From a virus, in the IMG/VR virus record IMGVR_UViG_3300010332_000008, positions 1 through 24,460 of that record: DNA of 24,460 bases; one strand, 5' to 3'. This document shows, one piece after another, positions 5,284 to 15,962 of this stretch. The notes under the pieces were generated by a model. The model saw only the letters and a program-made list of their open reading frames with translations. It was not told where the DNA came from and searched no databases. The translations under genes and the position numbers were made by a program. Within the stretch, counting starts at the first letter, position 1. Each line of letters opens with the position of its first letter.

Positions 5284-7470
5284 ATGGCAGTTGGTGATGA
5301 ATGGACTATTGATGCATTGAACAAGAGAATCTATTCATCTGGCCCTTCTACTTTCACAGTCAATGAACTCTATTCCTGGTTGATGGATCAATTTGACAAC
5401 CAAGAGTACATGGACGATCCTATACCAATGACTGCTCAGACACCAACAGAATACACGTTAGTAAATGGTTGGTTCATTGATGAAGAATCTCTTAAGTTTC
5501 TGAAAGGTGGTGCTATTAAGACATCAGGTTGGACCAATGAGATTTACATTCTTACTTTCCAGGAATCAGGTTATACTGACTGTGTATCTTCAGACATTGG
5601 CAAATTTGTCAACACTGGTGGTACTGACTTTGGTACATTGCTTTTCTATAATAATACTAAACGAAAATGGTGGATAAGAATAAAAGAAGGACAGTCTGTT
5701 CCTTCTCCAGGTTCGACTGTTAGTGTTACTGATGGAACTGGTTCAGGTACTTTAGAGTCTTCTGCTACTGGTGAAGATCTTTATGCCAACATTTACACAC
5801 TAGGTACGATTGAATCAGGAACTAACATTTACGTCATTCAAGCAGGTGAAAGATATCCTGCTTATTGGGGCATAAACAACTCTAGTGAATGGTGGCCTGC
5901 AGGACATATAGACATTCTGATCAGAGTGAAAGAAGCAGACACTGAAGTTGATGAAGGAAAAGTTACTATTTATGCAAGAGAGTACACAGATTATTATGAC
6001 TTCTATGAAATAGACCTATCAGCTGGAGGTAGGAACGCTGTACCATTGGCTACTTCAGATGACTTGGACAACCAAACTGCAGGTTCCACAGTTGCCAACT
6101 ACATTGAAGACATAAAGATTTGGTTCGTACATGGTACACTTCCTTATGATTCTGGTTCTGGAAGCTTTCCAACTGGTGGAATTGTTGGTCATGTTATCTA
6201 TGACTCAACTTCTGATGGAGTAGGAGTAGTAGTAGAACAAGTTGCAGGAGATGAAACAGCAGGAACATTCCGTCTTGCTAATGTCTCTGGCAACTTTGCT
6301 GACAACGATTCTCTGATGATCTTATCTGAATTGACTTTTGGTTCACCTTCTGGAACATTCCATGTGGGAGACACAGTAACTGGTGAAACATCAGGTGCTT
6401 CAGGAGTAATTCGTTATCTGGAACAAATACAGGGTGGAACAATTGGATATCTCTACTTGTCAGACAGAAATGCCAATGACTTCCAAGACGGAGAAAACTT
6501 ATTGGTAAATGGAAACACAATTGCAGTAGCAGTTGGAACACAGACAGATTACAACTGGTCAGGTTCAGTAAATGGTAGCTTCACCTTTGGAAACACAATT
6601 GACAAGGACATAGATGATGGTCAAGGAGCACAACCTTACAATGTTGTTATTGACCTAGGTGGAAAGACAGTAGCTGAACTATATGAATTTGTCAAGTACA
6701 TTTGCAGAAGAGGTTCAAACTATATTCTGAAACCAACAGATGGTACGTCAACAATTTATTCAGTTCCTGGTGAACAATACCAGAAAGCAGTAACAACTTA
6801 TACTCAGGTCAAGAAAGCTTCACCTCTAGGAACATTTGCAGGTGGCAAGTTCTTCGGTGCTAGAGGTATATGGATACAGAACATGGATGTCAACGACATA
6901 CGTAACTATCAGTTGATAGATGCTAACAATGTAACTCATGATCCTCCAAACTGGCAAGCATTTGTTGTGACTAACTTGCAAGCAGGAGACAGAGTAGCAA
7001 TCTTCCCAACTGTAGCACAAGGTTCAACTACAATCAATAAGTCACAGTTCACTCTAGCTGGACAATCTTCAGGAGTAGACTACATTGAAGTCCAAGAAGA
7101 AATACCAGTAGACACACCATACAAGGAAGAAGACATGCCTGGAGTCATAAGAGTAAGATACAATGTAGGACAACCAAATGAGGGAGAAGACATCTATCAA
7201 TATGACTCAATAGATTTTGCTAACAAGAGATTCCACTTGACAACTACAACTGTAAGAGCTTACACTAGCTCAGACAAAGCATATGTACCATACATGGACA
7301 GAACAGCTTCTTCAAGTGAAGAATCAGTGACAGTAAAGTATGTAACTGACAGATATGTAGTTGTCATTGTAAGAAGAAAAGGAATAATTCCATTCCAGCT
7401 AGCAGCTACATTCACTGACACAGGACTAAGAGTGTCAGCAATTAGAACAACTGACTCAATAGTAACTTAA
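5284..7470 (+). CDS. large virion structural protein (baseplate/fibre type)
   Basis: I prefer the ATG at 5284 (728 aa) over an in-frame GTG at 5272, because GGTGA at 5271-5275 gives an 8-nt SD spacing and the TATA spacing then matches the other promoters. The N-terminus reads NELYSWLMDQFDNQEYMDDP followed by IPMTAQTPTEYTLVNGWF, a module widespread in large virion proteins of tailed phages. The middle has Gly/Thr-rich beta hairpins such as FGSPSGTFHVGDTVTGETSG, like the G.f..G..vtG..SGa repeats of phage fibres. The C-terminal ~200 residues are mixed beta (VIRVRYNVGQ, VVVIVRRKGIIPFQLA). It is likely a baseplate or fibre subunit; the exact role is not known. It opens a four-gene block that runs to 9297. 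Confidence 0.6.
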   Translation: MAVGDEWTIDALNKRIYSSGPSTFTVNELYSWLMDQFDNQEYMDDPIPMTAQTPTEYTLVNGWFIDEESLKFLKGGAIKTSGWTNEIYILTFQESGYTDCVSSDIGKFVNTGGTDFGTLLFYNNTKRKWWIRIKEGQSVPSPGSTVSVTDGTGSGTLESSATGEDLYANIYTLGTIESGTNIYVIQAGERYPAYWGINNSSEWWPAGHIDILIRVKEADTEVDEGKVTIYAREYTDYYDFYEIDLSAGGRNAVPLATSDDLDNQTAGSTVANYIEDIKIWFVHGTLPYDSGSGSFPTGGIVGHVIYDSTSDGVGVVVEQVAGDETAGTFRLANVSGNFADNDSLMILSELTFGSPSGTFHVGDTVTGETSGASGVIRYLEQIQGGTIGYLYLSDRNANDFQDGENLLVNGNTIAVAVGTQTDYNWSGSVNGSFTFGNTIDKDIDDGQGAQPYNVVIDLGGKTVAELYEFVKYICRRGSNYILKPTDGTSTIYSVPGEQYQKAVTTYTQVKKASPLGTFAGGKFFGARGIWIQNMDVNDIRNYQLIDANNVTHDPPNWQAFVVTNLQAGDRVAIFPTVAQGSTTINKSQFTLAGQSSGVDYIEVQEEIPVDTPYKEEDMPGVIRVRYNVGQPNEGEDIYQYDSIDFANKRFHLTTTTVRAYTSSDKAYVPYMDRTASSSEESVTVKYVTDRYVVVIVRRKGIIPFQLAATFTDTGLRVSAIRTTDSIVT

Positions 7471-8845: not shown

Positions 8846-9297
8846 GTATAGTCACGAAAGGACTAGGTGGTCCATCTCTTATCACTTTAGGCTATGGTTG
8901 GCTAAAGAAGATAATCAAGGTCATAAAGAAAATAGTCTCTAGAGCAATACCATGGAGAAGGAAGAAATTCACTGTTAAAGTGAAAGTCCTTGGTGACTTG
9001 GTAAGACCTTTTAGAAGCACAGTTAAAGTGACTGGAGACTACTTGTTCCCTGTTGAGAAAACTTTAATAGTTTCAGGAACTTTTGTCCTTCCTGTTTCTT
9101 GTTTGTTAGAAGTAGAAGGAGAAATCTTTAGAAAATTTGGGTACAATATACCTCTTACTGGAGAAGTCAGACAACGTCTTTCACTAAGTTATCCTGTCAC
9201 AGGTTATCCAGTTCATGTGTTCCAGAAAGAAATATTGTGTGAAGGAAAGAAAGACTTGTCCACTATAGTATGGTTATTGTTGGAGGATGAAGAATAA
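8842..9297 (+). CDS. small virion protein built of 14-residue beta repeats
   Basis: The N-terminus GLGGPSLITLGYGW is a motif I associate with small phage structural proteins encoded after fibre/baseplate genes. A basic hydrophobic helix (residues 20-41, KKIIKVIKKIVSRAIPWRRK) follows. Residues 49-132 then fall into six 14-residue units, each beginning [VL]-x-G, for example VTGDYLFPVEKTLI and VSGTFVLPVSCLLE. That periodicity suggests a regular beta stack. GAGAGGG precedes the ATG, which overlaps the previous stop. It is the last gene before the head-module promoter. The function is unknown; a spike or tip protein is possible. Confidence 0.5.
   Translation: MSIVTKGLGGPSLITLGYGWLKKIIKVIKKIVSRAIPWRRKKFTVKVKVLGDLVRPFRSTVKVTGDYLFPVEKTLIVSGTFVLPVSCLLEVEGEIFRKFGYNIPLTGEVRQRLSLSYPVTGYPVHVFQKEILCEGKKDLSTIVWLLLEDEE
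8986..9237 (+). repeat. six tandem 42-nt coding units (14-residue beta repeat)
   Basis: The units start at residues 49, 63, 77, 91, 105 and 119 with VLG, VTG, VSG, VEG, LTG and VTG; a seventh CEG begins at 133. The repeat is clear in protein but weak in DNA, so it is old. Confidence 0.7.
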
Positions 9298-9298
9298 A

Positions 9299-9306
9299 CT
9301 TAAATA
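9299..9306 (+). promoter_or_regulatory. archaeal TATA box (CTTAAATA) for the head module
   Basis: It begins right after the preceding stop codon (TAA 9295-9297). Its last base is 37 nt before ATG 9343, the same spacing as the box at 5240. An AGGAG SD lies at about 9329-9333. Confidence 0.7.
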
Positions 9307-9342
9307 GAAAGGACTCAAGAAATAGTTTAGGAGCAGGTAAAA

Positions 9343-11475
9343 ATGTCTGATGAAACAGGAATTGAATTGATGACACAGAAAGAACTTGAAGAGATAAGAA
9401 AGAGAATTGCTAATGGTGAGAAGCCTACTAGAGTATCTATTGACTTGAACTATCCATTCATCACTCTTGAACAAGAAGGAAAACTGATAATCTCTGGAAT
9501 AGCTCTCTGTGAAGGTACATGGAAGAATGTCATGTATCCAGCTGATGAGATAAAGAAAGCAGCTGATACTCTTCTAGGAAAACCATTGAAAGTAGAACAT
9601 GGTCTTGATCCTCACTTTGGCAACAAGACAGTTGGTAAGGTCATCTATACAAAGTATGATCCTGTCCTAAGAGCAATTGTCTTCAAAGCAGAAGTAACTG
9701 ATCCTGAAGCAATAGCAAGAATTAAAGATGGCACATTCCCTGCTGTCTCTTGTTCAACTTGGGTAGACAAACTACCTCTTGATAAAGATCTCTTTGTAGG
9801 CTTCAATTACAACTTCAATGAACTGTCCCTAGTAAGAGAACCTGCTTGTGATCGTTGTTACATATTTGCTCTAGAAGAATTAAGTAAGCTTATAAATGGC
9901 AAATCCTTAAATAGTGAAATAGTTAAAGAAGAGATAGGTGAAAGACCAATGGAAGAAGAGCTAGAAGAGACAGAAGTTACTGCTGAAGATATTGTCTGTT
10001 CTCCAGACGAAGAAGAACTAGATATCTCAGAGCTTGAAGCTCCAAGACTCTTTGCTGTTGTGGAATTGACTGAGGATGAACTGGAAAACTTAAAGAAAGT
10101 TGTGAAAATTGTTAGTTACTATTACGGCTATCCTTATCCATATCCTTACTATGGCAAGTATCCTTATCCATACTATCCGTACTATCCGTATTACCCATAC
10201 TATTATCCACCTAAAGAAGAGGAAGAAGAGAAGAGCAAAAGAAAGGAGATGAAACAGTCACTTTGGGCAGTCATTGAACTTGACTCTCCTGATGCTCTTC
10301 AAGAGTTGAGACAGAAAGTCAAGAAAATAGTTGCAGTTTACTATGGCTATTATGGTTATCCATATCCAGGATATCCTGGCTATTACAAGTATCCATATCC
10401 TTACCCATATCCCTATCCGTATTATGGCTATCCTTACTATGGTTATCCTTACCCTTACAAGTATCCTGCACCTACTGAGAAGAAAACCAAGTTAGGTGTA
10501 GCTCTTATCAGTGACGAAGAAGGTCATATTACAGCTGAAGAGTTCTCCTCAAAAGAAGAACTGGAAGAACTTAAAGCTAAGAAGAAAGTCATCTTCTATT
10601 ACTATTATCCTTATCCAGGATATCCTTACCCTTATCCTTACCCCTATCCTTACAAGTATCCTATGCCTGAACTAGCTGAAATCAAATGTCCAGTTTGTGG
10701 TAAAACTTTTGATACGGAAGAAGAATTCATGGAACACTGGGCAGAAGAACATGAAGAAACTTACGGAAAACCAGAATTAGCTGCTGATGAGAAATATAGA
10801 ATAGTCAAGAATCCAAAGACAGGAAAGTTCATACTAATGGTTCCAACTGGAAAGAAGTTTCCTGCCTTTAAGATAGTAGGACAGTTTGACAGTGAAGAAG
10901 AGGCAAAGAAAGAAGCAGAAAAACTTATAAGTTCACTATCACAGTTAAGTGTTAAGGAGGTAAGTCAAATGGAAGAGGAAGAGAAGAAAGAAGAAGCTAA
11001 AGAGGAAGAAGTCAAACAGGAAGAAGCCAAACAGGGAGAAGTTGAAACCCCTAAGGAAGAAGTGAAAGAGACTCCAACTATCTCTGTTGATGAACTTAAA
11101 ACAGTTCTAGCTGATGCACTAAAGACAGGAATAATGGAGGCAATAAAGGCTATCAGAGAGACTGAGATAGAAAAGAAAGAAGCTCCTACTGAAGAAGAAC
11201 TCACACCTGAGAAAGAAGCAGAGAAACCAATAGTAGGTCAAGAGAAAGAGGAAAAGAAAGAAGAACAGACAGAAGCCAAGACCGAAGAGACTGAAAAGAC
11301 TGAGGAAAAAGCTGAAGAAAAGAAAGTTGAAGTCACAGTAGTGGAACAGAAAGAAGGTGAAGAGGGCCCTACCGAAGAGAAGAAGGAAATGACACTGGAC
11401 GAACTATACCAGAAACTGAAGGAAGAGGGAGTTTCTTCAGCAGAACTTCTGTTGAAAGTTTATCGTACAAAGTAG
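9343..11475 (+). CDS. XkdF-like prohead protease fused to Tyr/Pro-rich modules, zinc knuckle and scaffold-like tail
   Basis: This protein has 710 residues. Residues 30-190 resemble the XkdF/S78-type prohead protease: LIISGIALCEGTWKNVMYPA, then GKPLKVEHG with the likely catalytic His86, then GTFPAVSCSTW with the likely nucleophile Ser136 or Ser138. After a Glu-rich linker come three modules (236-442), each a short beta-alpha-beta unit of the AVxEL...L..L...VKKIV type followed by a YGYPYPYPYY-type tract. Next is a C2H2 knuckle (C449-x2-C452-x12-H465-x4-H470), a small beta domain (about 482-530) and a Glu/Lys-rich helical tail (543-710) like phage scaffolds. Known prohead proteases cut scaffold and themselves during maturation; a fusion of both keeps them in fixed ratio. 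Two in-frame internal starts probably make shorter forms. The major capsid gene lies two genes downstream. Confidence 0.75.
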   Translation: MSDETGIELMTQKELEEIRKRIANGEKPTRVSIDLNYPFITLEQEGKLIISGIALCEGTWKNVMYPADEIKKAADTLLGKPLKVEHGLDPHFGNKTVGKVIYTKYDPVLRAIVFKAEVTDPEAIARIKDGTFPAVSCSTWVDKLPLDKDLFVGFNYNFNELSLVREPACDRCYIFALEELSKLINGKSLNSEIVKEEIGERPMEEELEETEVTAEDIVCSPDEEELDISELEAPRLFAVVELTEDELENLKKVVKIVSYYYGYPYPYPYYGKYPYPYYPYYPYYPYYYPPKEEEEEKSKRKEMKQSLWAVIELDSPDALQELRQKVKKIVAVYYGYYGYPYPGYPGYYKYPYPYPYPYPYYGYPYYGYPYPYKYPAPTEKKTKLGVALISDEEGHITAEEFSSKEELEELKAKKKVIFYYYYPYPGYPYPYPYPYPYKYPMPELAEIKCPVCGKTFDTEEEFMEHWAEEHEETYGKPELAADEKYRIVKNPKTGKFILMVPTGKKFPAFKIVGQFDSEEEAKKEAEKLISSLSQLSVKEVSQMEEEEKKEEAKEEEVKQEEAKQGEVETPKEEVKETPTISVDELKTVLADALKTGIMEAIKAIRETEIEKKEAPTEEELTPEKEAEKPIVGQEKEEKKEEQTEAKTEETEKTEEKAEEKKVEVTVVEQKEGEEGPTEEKKEMTLDELYQKLKEEGVSSAELLLKVYRTK
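9906..9913 (+). promoter_or_regulatory. internal archaeal TATA box inside the protease gene (CTTAAATA)
   Basis: The same 8-mer as at 9299 lies inside the protease gene at the end of the protease domain. Its last base is 36 nt before in-frame ATG 9949, which is preceded by AGGTGA at 9936-9941. The spacing matches the genuine intergenic promoters (34-37 nt). Confidence 0.5.
9949..11475 (+). CDS. probable nested gene: Tyr/Pro-rich, zinc-knuckle, scaffold-like protein (508 aa)
   Basis: In-frame ATG 9949 (residue 203 of the long protein) has AGGTGA with 7-nt spacing and a TATA box at the standard distance. The product would lack the protease domain and begin with an acidic stretch (MEEELEETEVTAEDI). 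It keeps the three PY modules, the zinc knuckle and the scaffold-like tail. Making a protease-free form in excess is the usual need for a scaffold, as only a few protease copies enter a prohead. Expression from this start is an inference from the promoter and SD, not observed. Confidence 0.5.
   Translation: MEEELEETEVTAEDIVCSPDEEELDISELEAPRLFAVVELTEDELENLKKVVKIVSYYYGYPYPYPYYGKYPYPYYPYYPYYPYYYPPKEEEEEKSKRKEMKQSLWAVIELDSPDALQELRQKVKKIVAVYYGYYGYPYPGYPGYYKYPYPYPYPYPYYGYPYYGYPYPYKYPAPTEKKTKLGVALISDEEGHITAEEFSSKEELEELKAKKKVIFYYYYPYPGYPYPYPYPYPYKYPMPELAEIKCPVCGKTFDTEEEFMEHWAEEHEETYGKPELAADEKYRIVKNPKTGKFILMVPTGKKFPAFKIVGQFDSEEEAKKEAEKLISSLSQLSVKEVSQMEEEEKKEEAKEEEVKQEEAKQGEVETPKEEVKETPTISVDELKTVLADALKTGIMEAIKAIRETEIEKKEAPTEEELTPEKEAEKPIVGQEKEEKKEEQTEAKTEETEKTEEKAEEKKVEVTVVEQKEGEEGPTEEKKEMTLDELYQKLKEEGVSSAELLLKVYRTK
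10048..10668 (+). repeat. three beta-alpha-beta plus Tyr/Pro-rich modules
   Basis: Module 1 is 10048-10212, module 2 is 10258-10473 and module 3 is about 10492-10668. Each has a ~25-35-residue folded part (LFAVVELTEDELENLKKVVK; SLWAVIELDSPDALQELRQK; LGVALISDEEGHITAEEFSS) and then a tract of alternating YP/YG/PY. The PY tracts are at about 10117-10212, 10339-10473 and 10597-10668. In DNA they are runs of TAT/TAC and CCT/CCA codons, which are prone to expansion and contraction. Confidence 0.8.
10969..11475 (+). CDS. probable nested scaffold protein (168 aa)
   Basis: In-frame ATG 10969 (residue 543 of the long protein) is preceded by AAGGAGGT at 10954-10961 with 7-nt spacing, the strongest SD in the window, and it has no role unless translation starts here. 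The product is almost all helix-forming charged residues (MEEEEKKEEAKEEEVKQEEA), has one less charged helix (TISVDELKTVLADALKTGIM) and ends in DELYQKLKEEGVSSAELLLK, a capsid-binding-like amphipathic end. The layout is that of lambda gpC/Nu3, where scaffold is an internal in-frame start of the protease gene. I see no TATA box directly upstream, so it would be translated from the longer mRNAs. Confidence 0.6.
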   Translation: MEEEEKKEEAKEEEVKQEEAKQGEVETPKEEVKETPTISVDELKTVLADALKTGIMEAIKAIRETEIEKKEAPTEEELTPEKEAEKPIVGQEKEEKKEEQTEAKTEETEKTEEKAEEKKVEVTVVEQKEGEEGPTEEKKEMTLDELYQKLKEEGVSSAELLLKVYRTK

Positions 11476-11489
11476 AAGAGAGTACTTCC

Positions 11490-11777
11490 ATGTCTGAGAT
11501 TGAAGAACTCAAGAAGAAAGTGAAGGAACTAGAAGAACAACTACTTGAACTTAAAGCAGAAAATAAAGCACTCCAGAAATACATTGATCTTTTGGAGAAG
11601 AGAGCTTCTGTTCCTTCATTTTCTCAACAGAATCTTCAACCTCAACAGAGACAGATGACAAAGAAAGAAATAGAAGAGAAACTTAAAGAAATCAAGGAGA
11701 ATGTTGACCTAGGACAAATAGTTCTTTACTGTATTGAGAAAGACCTCATCAAACGAGGTAGGGAAGAAGTAGGCTAG
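11490..11777 (+). CDS. small coiled-coil protein between scaffold and capsid genes
   Basis: This 95-residue protein has a heptad coiled coil at residues 2-45 (EELKKKVKELEEQLLELKAE), a Gln/Pro linker (SFSQQNLQPQQRQ) and a second helix (KKEIEEKLKEIKENVDLGQI) ending in IVLYCIEKDLI. It starts 14 nt after the protease/scaffold stop and has only a weak SD. It lies directly before the major capsid promoter. Candidates are a second scaffold-type factor or a head-assembly accessory; the sequence does not decide. No membrane segment is seen. Confidence 0.5.
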   Translation: MSEIEELKKKVKELEEQLLELKAENKALQKYIDLLEKRASVPSFSQQNLQPQQRQMTKKEIEEKLKEIKENVDLGQIVLYCIEKDLIKRGREEVG

Positions 11778-11799
11778 TTCTTCTAGACAAAGAGAAGGT

Positions 11800-11807
11800 T
11801 TTAAATA
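11800..11807 (+). promoter_or_regulatory. archaeal TATA box (TTTAAATA) of the major capsid gene
   Basis: It lies in the 63-nt gap before the capsid gene, 34 nt from ATG 11841 (49 nt from the alternative ATG 11856). A T-rich initiator stretch (TCTTTCTTTTTCTT) lies around 11817-11830. Confidence 0.7.
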
Positions 11808-11840
11808 ACTCATCTATCTTTCTTTTTCTTCAGAAAGAAA

Positions 11841-12872
11841 ATGGTGAAAGGGAAAATGAAAAGTCTAGAAGAACTAGCTACTGGTACTACACAAATCCTC
11901 GATCTGTTACCTAAGATCATCCTCGATGAAGTAGAGGAAGCTGCTAGAGCTAGGCGTTTTGGTCGTAACTTGGTCAGAATAAATGAAGACCTAGTTAGGA
12001 CCAAAGGTAGAAGCCTAGTCATTGGCAGACGTGGAACTCTCACTGCTTCATCTGTCTCTGAAGGTGGAACTCCAACTGAGAACACTCTGACCTATTCTGC
12101 TCACACTATAACTGTGGGCAAAATAGGAACTTGTGTCAAGATCACTCAGGAAGCTATTGACGGTGCAGAGCTAAACCTGATCAAGGATGCTATTGCAGAG
12201 GCAGGTATAGCTCTGGCTGACAAGGAAGACTTAGACATTGTTCATGAACTTATTGGTTACACGACTGCTTCAACAATCTCTTCAGGTGCAGGTACTTTGT
12301 CCACAGGCAAGAAAATCCTAGAGATAGTCTCTGACCCTGCAGGAATTGTCTCTAAAGTAGACTACTATGATGGAAAGATAGTAGTGACAGGAGCAGGAAC
12401 AATAACTTATGCTTACACTGTCAGAACTTATGTAGAAGATGCTCAATCAGCAGGAACTCTGTCCTATGACGACATAGCTATTGCTGCTGGCAAGATAAGA
12501 TCAAGGAAATGGAAGCCTAACTTCATGCTAATTCATCCTAACCAAATGGCTGACCTACTCAGAGACACTAGGTTCATTGATGCTTCCAAATACGGAAGCA
12601 ATGAGCCTATTGTCAATGGTGAGATAGGCAAGATCGCTGGTCTGAAAGTACTAGTCTCAACTCACATACCAGATGGTGTGATGCTGATCGTGGACTCAAC
12701 AAGAGCTGCTTGGTTGGCTATCAAGAGACCAATTGACATGAAGAGATGGGACAATCCTGCTACTGACTCAGTAGAACTCTACTTCTACGAGGAATATGGT
12801 GTCAAGGTAACAGATGAGGATGCAGTAGAAGTTGTAGTCAACCTCAACAAGACATACGCCACTGACCTCTAA
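11841..12872 (+). CDS. HK97-fold major capsid protein
   Basis: This 343-residue protein has the features of HK97-fold major capsid proteins: an N-terminal helix with ARARRFGRNLVRINEDLVRT, an E-loop-like beta region (RRGTLTASSVSEGGTPTENT), a spine helix (ELNLIKDAIAEAGIALADKE) and the P/A-domain signature FMLIHPNQMADLLRDTRFID, then NGEIGKIAGLKVLVS and RAAWLAIKRPIDMKRW. I see no long delta domain. It is a single-gene unit with its own promoter and a terminator, and it uses more C-ending codons than its neighbours, as expected for the most abundant virion protein. ATG 11841 has only a weak SD. In-frame ATG 11856 (338 aa) has GGTGA at 11843-11847 with 8-nt spacing and may be the real start; the TATA distance favours 11841. 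Confidence 0.85.
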   Translation: MVKGKMKSLEELATGTTQILDLLPKIILDEVEEAARARRFGRNLVRINEDLVRTKGRSLVIGRRGTLTASSVSEGGTPTENTLTYSAHTITVGKIGTCVKITQEAIDGAELNLIKDAIAEAGIALADKEDLDIVHELIGYTTASTISSGAGTLSTGKKILEIVSDPAGIVSKVDYYDGKIVVTGAGTITYAYTVRTYVEDAQSAGTLSYDDIAIAAGKIRSRKWKPNFMLIHPNQMADLLRDTRFIDASKYGSNEPIVNGEIGKIAGLKVLVSTHIPDGVMLIVDSTRAAWLAIKRPIDMKRWDNPATDSVELYFYEEYGVKVTDEDAVEVVVNLNKTYATDL

Positions 12873-12903
12873 ACCAGTAGCTAGTTTATTTTAAAAGATA
12901 TTT

Positions 12904-12940
12904 CGAGTCTCACCCTAAAGTGGTGAGATTCGTTTTCTTT
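12904..12940 (+). terminator. hairpin plus T-tract terminator after the capsid gene
   Basis: CGAGTCTCACC (12904-12914) pairs with GGTGAGATTCG (12922-12932) in an 11-bp stem with one G-T wobble and a 7-nt loop. TTTTCTTT follows, then more T-rich sequence. It lies 31 nt after the capsid stop and before the next promoter, so it should separate the capsid transcript from the connector operon. Confidence 0.75.
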
Positions 12941-12957
12941 CTATCTCTTGTAGAAAA

Positions 12958-12965
12958 CTTAAATA
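12958..12965 (+). promoter_or_regulatory. archaeal TATA box (CTTAAATA) of the connector/tail operon
   Basis: Its last base is 35 nt before ATG 13000, with TAGGGA at 12988-12993 as SD. It directly follows the capsid terminator. Confidence 0.7.
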
Positions 12966-12999
12966 ATTTGTTTGATGATTCTTGTTTTAGGGATATTAG

Positions 13000-13701
13000 A
13001 TGTATACGACTCCACAAGATGTAAGAGACTTGCTTGGTGTAAGTATTGAAGATGCGTCAGATGAAATCTTAAAAGAATTTATTGAGAAAGCACAGAGAGT
13101 GGTACTGAAGCACATTACTGTCAAAGTCAAAGATGAAGTGATGTCTGGTAGCATAAATGGACAGAACAACACTTTCTCTGTCTCAAACAAATATTTGGCT
13201 GATGTAGATTTTGATGAACAAGTAACAACTTCAGACTTCAAAATATATGGTTGGAAAGATGCTGATGATCCTGGTACGAAAGTAGAGTTGACTTGTTCCA
13301 CTTTCTATCCTGAATATGGAATCTTTGTTCTTTCTGAAGCACCTGATCCTAATACTTATGAAATTCTTACTTGTGACTATTCTTATTACACTTGTCAGAT
13401 AGACTGGACATTAGTAGAACTGGCAACAGCTTATTATGCTGCCTTCTTGTGGGTAGCAAGAGAACTGTTTCTTGTACCAGAAGAGTGGGCACTAGGAAAC
13501 TTAAGAATTAGACAGAGAGAACCGTGGAGACATTACAGAACAGAATTCTACAACATCATAAAGTATCTTAGAAGATTACCCATGGACATGACCAGTTACA
13601 GAAAGATGGTGACAACTCCAAGAGTAAGAGGAGAATTCACTGGACCTAGAACACTGCAGGAATATCTTGATAGACTGTCTAGAATGAAGGTGAAAACTTA
13701 A
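13000..13701 (+). CDS. head-tail connector (HK97 gp6/SPP1 gp15-like)
   Basis: This protein has 233 residues. The N-terminus YTTPQDVRDLLGVSIEDASD followed by EILKEFIEKAQRVVLKHI has the form of connector proteins of the gp6/gp15 type, which begin with a 'Y.t..dvr.ll.....diSD..l..li..A' helix pair. A beta insertion (residues 45-120) and a second helix pair (TLVELATAYYAAFLWVARE) complete the expected fold. The C-terminal 60 residues are basic. These proteins form the ring below the portal. It is first in an operon running through the tail genes, and its stop overlaps the next start (TAATG). Confidence 0.65.
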   Translation: MYTTPQDVRDLLGVSIEDASDEILKEFIEKAQRVVLKHITVKVKDEVMSGSINGQNNTFSVSNKYLADVDFDEQVTTSDFKIYGWKDADDPGTKVELTCSTFYPEYGIFVLSEAPDPNTYEILTCDYSYYTCQIDWTLVELATAYYAAFLWVARELFLVPEEWALGNLRIRQREPWRHYRTEFYNIIKYLRRLPMDMTSYRKMVTTPRVRGEFTGPRTLQEYLDRLSRMKVKT

Positions 13702-15540: not shown

Positions 15541-15548
15541 TTTAAATA
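15541..15548 (+). promoter_or_regulatory. archaeal TATA box (TTTAAATA) of the major tail-tube gene
   Basis: Its last base is 37 nt before ATG 15585. A GGTGGTGAGAG SD region sits near 15571-15581. It gives the second tube gene its own transcript. Confidence 0.65.
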
Positions 15549-15584
15549 ACAATCAAAGATAAGATAGAAGGTGGTGAGAGAAGA

Positions 15585-15962
15585 ATGGCGACATATAAAG
15601 GTTGGAATGCTAAAATCTACAAGGATGGACTGTTGATAGGACACTGTGATTCAGCATCAGTAGAAATAGCCACTAACCTAGAAGCCTACTATGAAATAGG
15701 CTCCAGAGTACCAACTGATCTAGTTGCTGGTAATCAAGAAGTCACTGGCTCCCTCTCAAAGGCTTGGGTCAACAAGGACTATCTACAACTAGTTGCTGGT
15801 ACAGGAACACTCTCTGAATTTGATCTTTGCTTTGAAGTTGAAAATGGACCAAAAATCTATTGCTACGACTGTAAGTTTGAGAGAGGAGCAGTGGACATTC
15901 CACAAGACGGTTGGTTGAAAGAAGACTTTGACTTCAGGGCAAAATCAGTAGCAGTCCTCTAG
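15585..15962 (+). CDS. major tail tube protein, second paralogue
   Basis: This 125-residue protein begins MATYKGWNAKIYKDG and has the tube-type beta pattern (SASVEIATNLEAYYEIGSRV, QEVTGSLSKAWVNKDYLQL, GTGTLSEFDLCFEVENGP) with the end CYDCKFERGAVDIPQDGW shared with its neighbour. It has its own promoter, a strong SD and a stem-loop just after the stop, and its codons are closer to those of the capsid gene. These features point to the abundant tube subunit. Cys pairs (CYDC) are partly shared with the first copy (YNC). Tube proteins polymerise around the tape measure. Confidence 0.7.
   Translation: MATYKGWNAKIYKDGLLIGHCDSASVEIATNLEAYYEIGSRVPTDLVAGNQEVTGSLSKAWVNKDYLQLVAGTGTLSEFDLCFEVENGPKIYCYDCKFERGAVDIPQDGWLKEDFDFRAKSVAVL

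Follow-up and report, generated by a model that had tools for sequence, protein, structure and literature searches.

Tailed viruses and herpesviruses have related capsid and protease folds, and a gene in which the prohead protease is fused to the scaffold must give much scaffold and little protease. The herpesvirus solution is a promoter inside the protease gene, and the bacteriophage cases found use an internal ribosome site. In phage lambda, an internal in-frame start within the protease gene C gives rise to the scaffold Nu3. Mu and Mu-like Pseudomonas phages possess an internal in-frame Shine–Dalgarno (SD) sequence and start codon in the protease gene, from which the scaffold is made (PMC4378225). 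In HSV-1, the UL26.5 gene is in frame and 3'-coterminal with UL26, and its promoter lies inside the coding sequence of UL26 (PMC2949831). For Marek's disease virus, a separate transcript is supported by a start that lies 24 bp below a TATA motif (PMC10284419), and an alternative UL80.5 transcript of HCMV encodes the scaffold only (PMC9732275). The nested layout of herpesvirus protease and scaffold is also described in PMC12474303.

Here, we describe a locus of an archaeal-type tailed virus in which nucleotides 9906–9949 very probably constitute a gene start nested in the prohead protease gene, comprising an archaeal promoter and an SD-led ATG that would produce a protease-free scaffold. In the proposed mechanism, an upstream promoter (9299) would supply a modest amount of a 710-aa protease–scaffold fusion, and a TATA-type archaeal promoter in the protease–scaffold linker would generate a separate, 3'-coterminal transcript, on which the SD-led ATG at 9949 would open a 508-aa protease-free scaffold. 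The internal start would thereby provide scaffold in excess of protease, the common C-terminus would allow both proteins to co-assemble in one prohead, and the protease would cleave and clear the scaffold during maturation. A shorter form of the scaffold may additionally arise from another SD-led start, at 10969.

The window, which is the whole stretch of DNA analysed, is a 24.5-kb virus record with a head–tail gene order: DNA-processing ORFs, structural ORFs, the 710-aa ORF, a coiled-coil ORF, the major capsid protein (MCP) gene and tail genes, the latter including those for a tube protein and a tape-measure-like protein. The head genes and the elements within them are on the plus strand. The MCP (11841–12872) has the HK97 fold (Pfam Phage_capsid, 2e-13; PHROG major head protein, 5e-20), and the order of the two genes, protease first and HK97-fold capsid after it, corresponds to the HK97-like head module of the Caudoviricetes. 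The small coiled-coil ORF (11490–11777), located between the scaffold and capsid genes, is possibly a second assembly protein. A strong hairpin with a T-rich tract (12904–12932), a possible transcription terminator, lies directly 3' of the capsid gene. Upstream of the head genes, the region 2–2861 contains a LigD 3'-phosphoesterase-like gene (546–2861) preceded by an ORF with DNA ligase-like relatives, and this pair recurs in relatives of the virus.

The host is likely to be archaeal, and probably thermophilic. The archaeal assignment is based on three observations: a sigma-70 promoter scan of 9200–13100 gave fewer sites than shuffled sequences and none at the internal element; the contig of one relative (L025) sits in an Archaeoglobales MAG, a link that may be mere binning of a viral contig; and several window genes that follow intergenic gaps are preceded by [CT]TTAAATA boxes 41–44 nt from their ATG.

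The full-length ORF (9343–11475), 710 aa in length, comprises a protease domain, a linker, beta-alpha-beta and PY repeats, a zinc-finger-like motif and an acidic scaffold tail. Its ATG is preceded at -44 by the TATA-type box CTTAAATA (9299–9306). The protease domain (approximately residues 45–177; 9475–9873) is unrecognised by Pfam alone and yielded nothing convincing in an hmmsearch of the PDB, but a fold search did recover matches. The AlphaFold model of this domain (core pLDDT of about 85–94) is structurally similar to a herpesvirus protease (VIA Z of 11.2 and 2.3 Å over 108 residues with PDB entry 1vzv) and to T4 gp21 (Z of 10.8 with PDB entry 5jbl), compared with approximately 6.9 for unrelated entries; the best Foldseek match is the KSHV protease (E of 6e-4). 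Residues H86, S136, S138 and E160 are invariant in the homologue alignment, and the proteases of the relatives match the PHROG head maturation protease. The modelled assemblin/T4 gp21 fold supports the assignment of the N-terminal domain as a prohead protease, the label it had been given in the first-pass annotation. The nearest named protease relative is gp11 of the Halogranum tailed virus HGTV-1 (prohead protease, 888 aa; 29% over 137 aa), which also has a long C-terminal extension; no box, SD and ATG element was detected at the two in-frame Mets examined in that extension.

The internal ATG at 9949 is residue 203 of the full-length ORF, in frame and at the end of the protease domain. It is preceded by the SD sequence AGGTGA (9936–9941, with a spacer of 7 nt) and, at -43, by the TATA-type box CTTAAATA (9906–9913), all three elements being present as the first-pass annotation had claimed. 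The same annotation had held the box-to-ATG spacing to equal that of the intergenic promoters; we obtain 35 nt for the internal site and 33–36 nt for the intergenic ones, and its figures were right to within 1 nt. Counted from the first nucleotide of the box, the intergenic boxes are positioned at -44 (5240 to the ATG at 5284), -44 (9299 to 9343), -41 (the major capsid gene box, 11800–11807, to 11841), -42 (12958 to 13000) and -44 (15541 to 15585). The plus strand of the window has six TTAAATA cores, and all but the one at 9906–9913 lie outside genes. Given the archaeal TATA-to-start distance and a geometry like that of the intergenic promoters, transcription would be predicted to start at 9934–9938, close to the SD sequence, as at the other promoters of the window. 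RNA folding of 9930–10000 is ordinary (z of 0.07).

When coding positions were scored with a PWM trained on 26 intergenic boxes (exact [CT]TTAAATA), 9906–9913 scored highest of all 23,212 such positions in the window, and with a leave-one-locus-out PWM the window site outscored all 774 other in-frame internal ATGs. Synonymous resampling with the amino acids fixed placed a strict box upstream of ATG 9949 in 2.5% of trials and often produced SD-like strings. Because an exact box arises at that frequency, the window taken without its relatives is only suggestive of an internal promoter; it is conservation across the relatives that, in our judgement, makes the internal element compelling.

The protease, its alignments and the capsid protein were each used as search queries; together they yielded a set of 16 distinct homologous protease–scaffold ORFs including that of the window, and the protease domains of the 15 distinct homologues are approximately 39–64% identical to that of the window. 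Third-position identity between loci averages approximately 0.43, so that synonymous sites are near saturation and the loci are nearly independent there. An in-frame ATG is present at the end of the linker, after the protease domain, in 16/16 loci, the Met of each homologue having been picked by eye and the alignment made afterwards; nearly all other linker residues vary. Four loci (L026, L027, L031 and L033) came to light only once the pattern had been described and thus form an out-of-sample set, which fits throughout, L031 only through the one-mismatch box CTTAAGTA.

Alignment of the homologous loci, as the first-pass annotation had proposed, reveals that box and SD are kept beyond the needs of the amino acid sequence. 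A TTAA-cored box is found at -40 to -49 of the internal ATG in all 16 loci, and in eight of them (the window, L033, L027, L014, L013, L016, L026 and L021) it is an exact [CT]TTAAATA. SD matches of at least 4 nt are present in 14 of the 16, the exceptions being L018 and L020, and they are encoded through differing amino acids (IGE, VGE, EVK, EVI, EVN and REGD). Matches of at least 6 nt occur at 7/16 sites, compared with 9/763 other in-frame internal ATGs (Fisher p of 4e-9). Box and SD have not been lost from close relatives that keep the protein, the outcome that the annotation had named as counting against its proposal: the closest capsid relative, L033 (75% MCP identity), retains CTTAAATA at -43, the AGGTGA and the ATG. 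Promoter strength probably varies between loci, since the box is degraded to YTTAAAAG in L005, L018 and L020 and reads CTTAAGTA in L031 and L022, and the SD is absent from L018 and L020.

Conservation of the box extends to the choice of codon. Although the flanking residues differ, all 13 aligned cases use TTA for the Leu within it, whereas at eight further conserved Leu columns in these genes TTA accounts for 24 of 121 codons (Fisher p of 9e-9); the third-position divergence between the loci makes shared ancestry a poor explanation of this invariance. Inside genes, exact boxes are found only seven times across 12 loci (140 kb of CDS), five of them at the internal site, and looser boxes are rarer than in codon shuffles (49 compared with 74 ± 7). 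No other column with a box in more than one virus was found in 14 aligned gene families. Among coding positions, the internal box has the highest PWM score in 11/16 loci and ranks eighth or better in all 16, and 10 of the 16 sites beat all 774 other internal ATGs with the leave-one-locus-out PWM (Mann–Whitney p of 4e-12). The range of -40 to -49 is comparable to that of the intergenic boxes (mostly -39 to -47), in keeping with an archaeal TATA promoter.

An internal start of translation only, with the SD and ATG used on the full-length or operon mRNA and the TTAAATA not acting as a promoter, is the alternative that deserves most attention, although we regard it as unlikely. Promoterless internal in-frame scaffold starts are documented in Mu-like phages (PMC4378225), the boxes of L005, L018 and L020 are weak, and the distant relative L048 keeps an SD and ATG at the equivalent place with no box. 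The start in the L048 branch may thus be translational only, which may hint either that the translational start predates the promoter or that this branch has lost the promoter. This reading does not account for conservation of the box at the codon level, for its promoter-like spacing or for its uniqueness inside genes.

Two further readings have very little probability. The box could act as a booster promoter serving the coiled-coil and capsid genes downstream of it, with the ATG incidental; it is indeed upstream of the head genes on the same strand, but the capsid gene already has its own box at 11800, and a booster would need neither a conserved in-frame ATG, nor an SD, nor a constrained box-to-ATG spacing. 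If anything still less probable is a constraint on the protein only, by which the linker (a Leu-Asn/Lys step, Gly-Glu and Met) would be a cleavage or hinge site with no internal expression. The linker is placed where the protease would be released from the scaffold, and both Leu-Asn/Lys and Gly-Glu recur, but the invariant TTA, the SD encoded through different amino acids and the promoter spacing are left unexplained. The nested promoter with its SD-led ATG is the reading that we prefer.

The predicted product of the nested gene (9949–11475) is in frame and 508 aa long, as the first-pass annotation had stated, and its predicted N-terminal peptide is MEEELEETEVTAEDIV. The AlphaFold model of this product has a pTM of only 0.27, and its local structure alone is trusted. 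Three predicted beta-alpha-beta units with PY-rich tracts between them (10045–10605; local pLDDT of 81–96) begin approximately 30 residues after the internal ATG. The repeats of the PY region are of the type LWAVxELxSPEExxELKxxxKKVVxVYYGYYGYPYY, and their number differs among relatives. In L015 (704–1681), a change of frame within the PY tract interrupts the protease–scaffold ORF, owing either to a sequencing error in this repeat or to truncation of the gene. The zinc-finger-like motif CPVCGKTF...H...H follows (10687–10755): the CxxC...H pattern behind the zinc site of the first-pass annotation is present, and its Pfam match is below the cut-off. In the model, a long helix comes after the motif, then a stretch that is acidic and disordered, and finally a C-terminus of two helices. 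We infer that this C-terminal part is the scaffold because it lies between the protease and the capsid gene, is fused to the protease and has a composition that fits.

A second nested in-frame start (10969–11475) would give the 168-aa acidic scaffold tail with its two predicted C-terminal helices. The SD sequence located 7 nt before this ATG, AGGAGGT (10955–10961), is the strongest in the ORF. An equivalent ATG and SD are present in six relatives (L005, L018, L011, L013, L031 and L033), and L020 and L023 have the beginning of a separate gene at that place, with AAGGAGG. SD sequences were found in seven loci with no consistently conserved promoter box, and for that reason 10969 is at most a translational start. 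The distant relative L041 (2891–5977) carries its protease domain as a C-terminal fusion to a metallo-hydrolase/phosphoesterase-like ORF; the gene that follows (5522) encodes a separate acidic, PY-containing coiled-coil protein with an AGGTGAT SD. The separate genes of L041 and of L020 and L023 were considered as natural splits of the fusion and rejected, BLASTP showing no homology to the window scaffold; they are positional hints only. The second start, the UL26/UL26.5 parallel and the internal-start precedents of Mu and lambda are absent from the first-pass annotation.

The locus resembles the herpesvirus UL26/UL26.5 and UL80/UL80.5 genes in that an N-terminal protease of the assemblin fold is fused to a scaffold and an in-frame nested ORF shares its C-terminus, with a promoter element inside the protease–scaffold coding region that is recognised here at the level of sequence. 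The several nested 3'-coterminal transcripts of HCMV can be likened to the two nested starts of the window. Unlike the herpesviruses, the window belongs to an archaeal-type tailed virus, with an archaeal promoter and SD-led translation; its nested start sits exactly where the protease linker ends, and its scaffold carries PY-rich beta-alpha-beta repeats and a zinc-finger-like motif. The nesting in the two groups may be convergent. With Mu I/Z and lambda C/Nu3 the window shares an SD and an in-frame start located within the protease gene, but those are translational starts on a shared mRNA, whereas the window adds a conserved box that, judged by its sequence, would be a separate scaffold promoter.

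No description of a nested promoter–scaffold arrangement in archaeal viruses was found in the literature searched, which was covered in part. If the proposed arrangement is correct, a transcriptional solution exists outside the eukaryotic viruses, shared origin and convergence become testable, and the locus is a clear case of functional sequence hidden in a viral gene and missed by annotation. A broader proposal, to which we give somewhat less than an even chance, is that transcriptional nesting extends to archaeal HK97-fold viruses as an ancient Duplodnaviria trait or by convergence, the start at 10969 completing a three-protein family like that of HCMV UL80.

Other features were observed among the relatives. 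Probable LAGLIDADG inteins are present in a viral DNA ligase (L005, 2–2917) and in a phosphoesterase-like protein (L009, 5040–8051), and L006 (78–2279) encodes an archaeal LonB-like protease (Lon_C, E of 1e-20).
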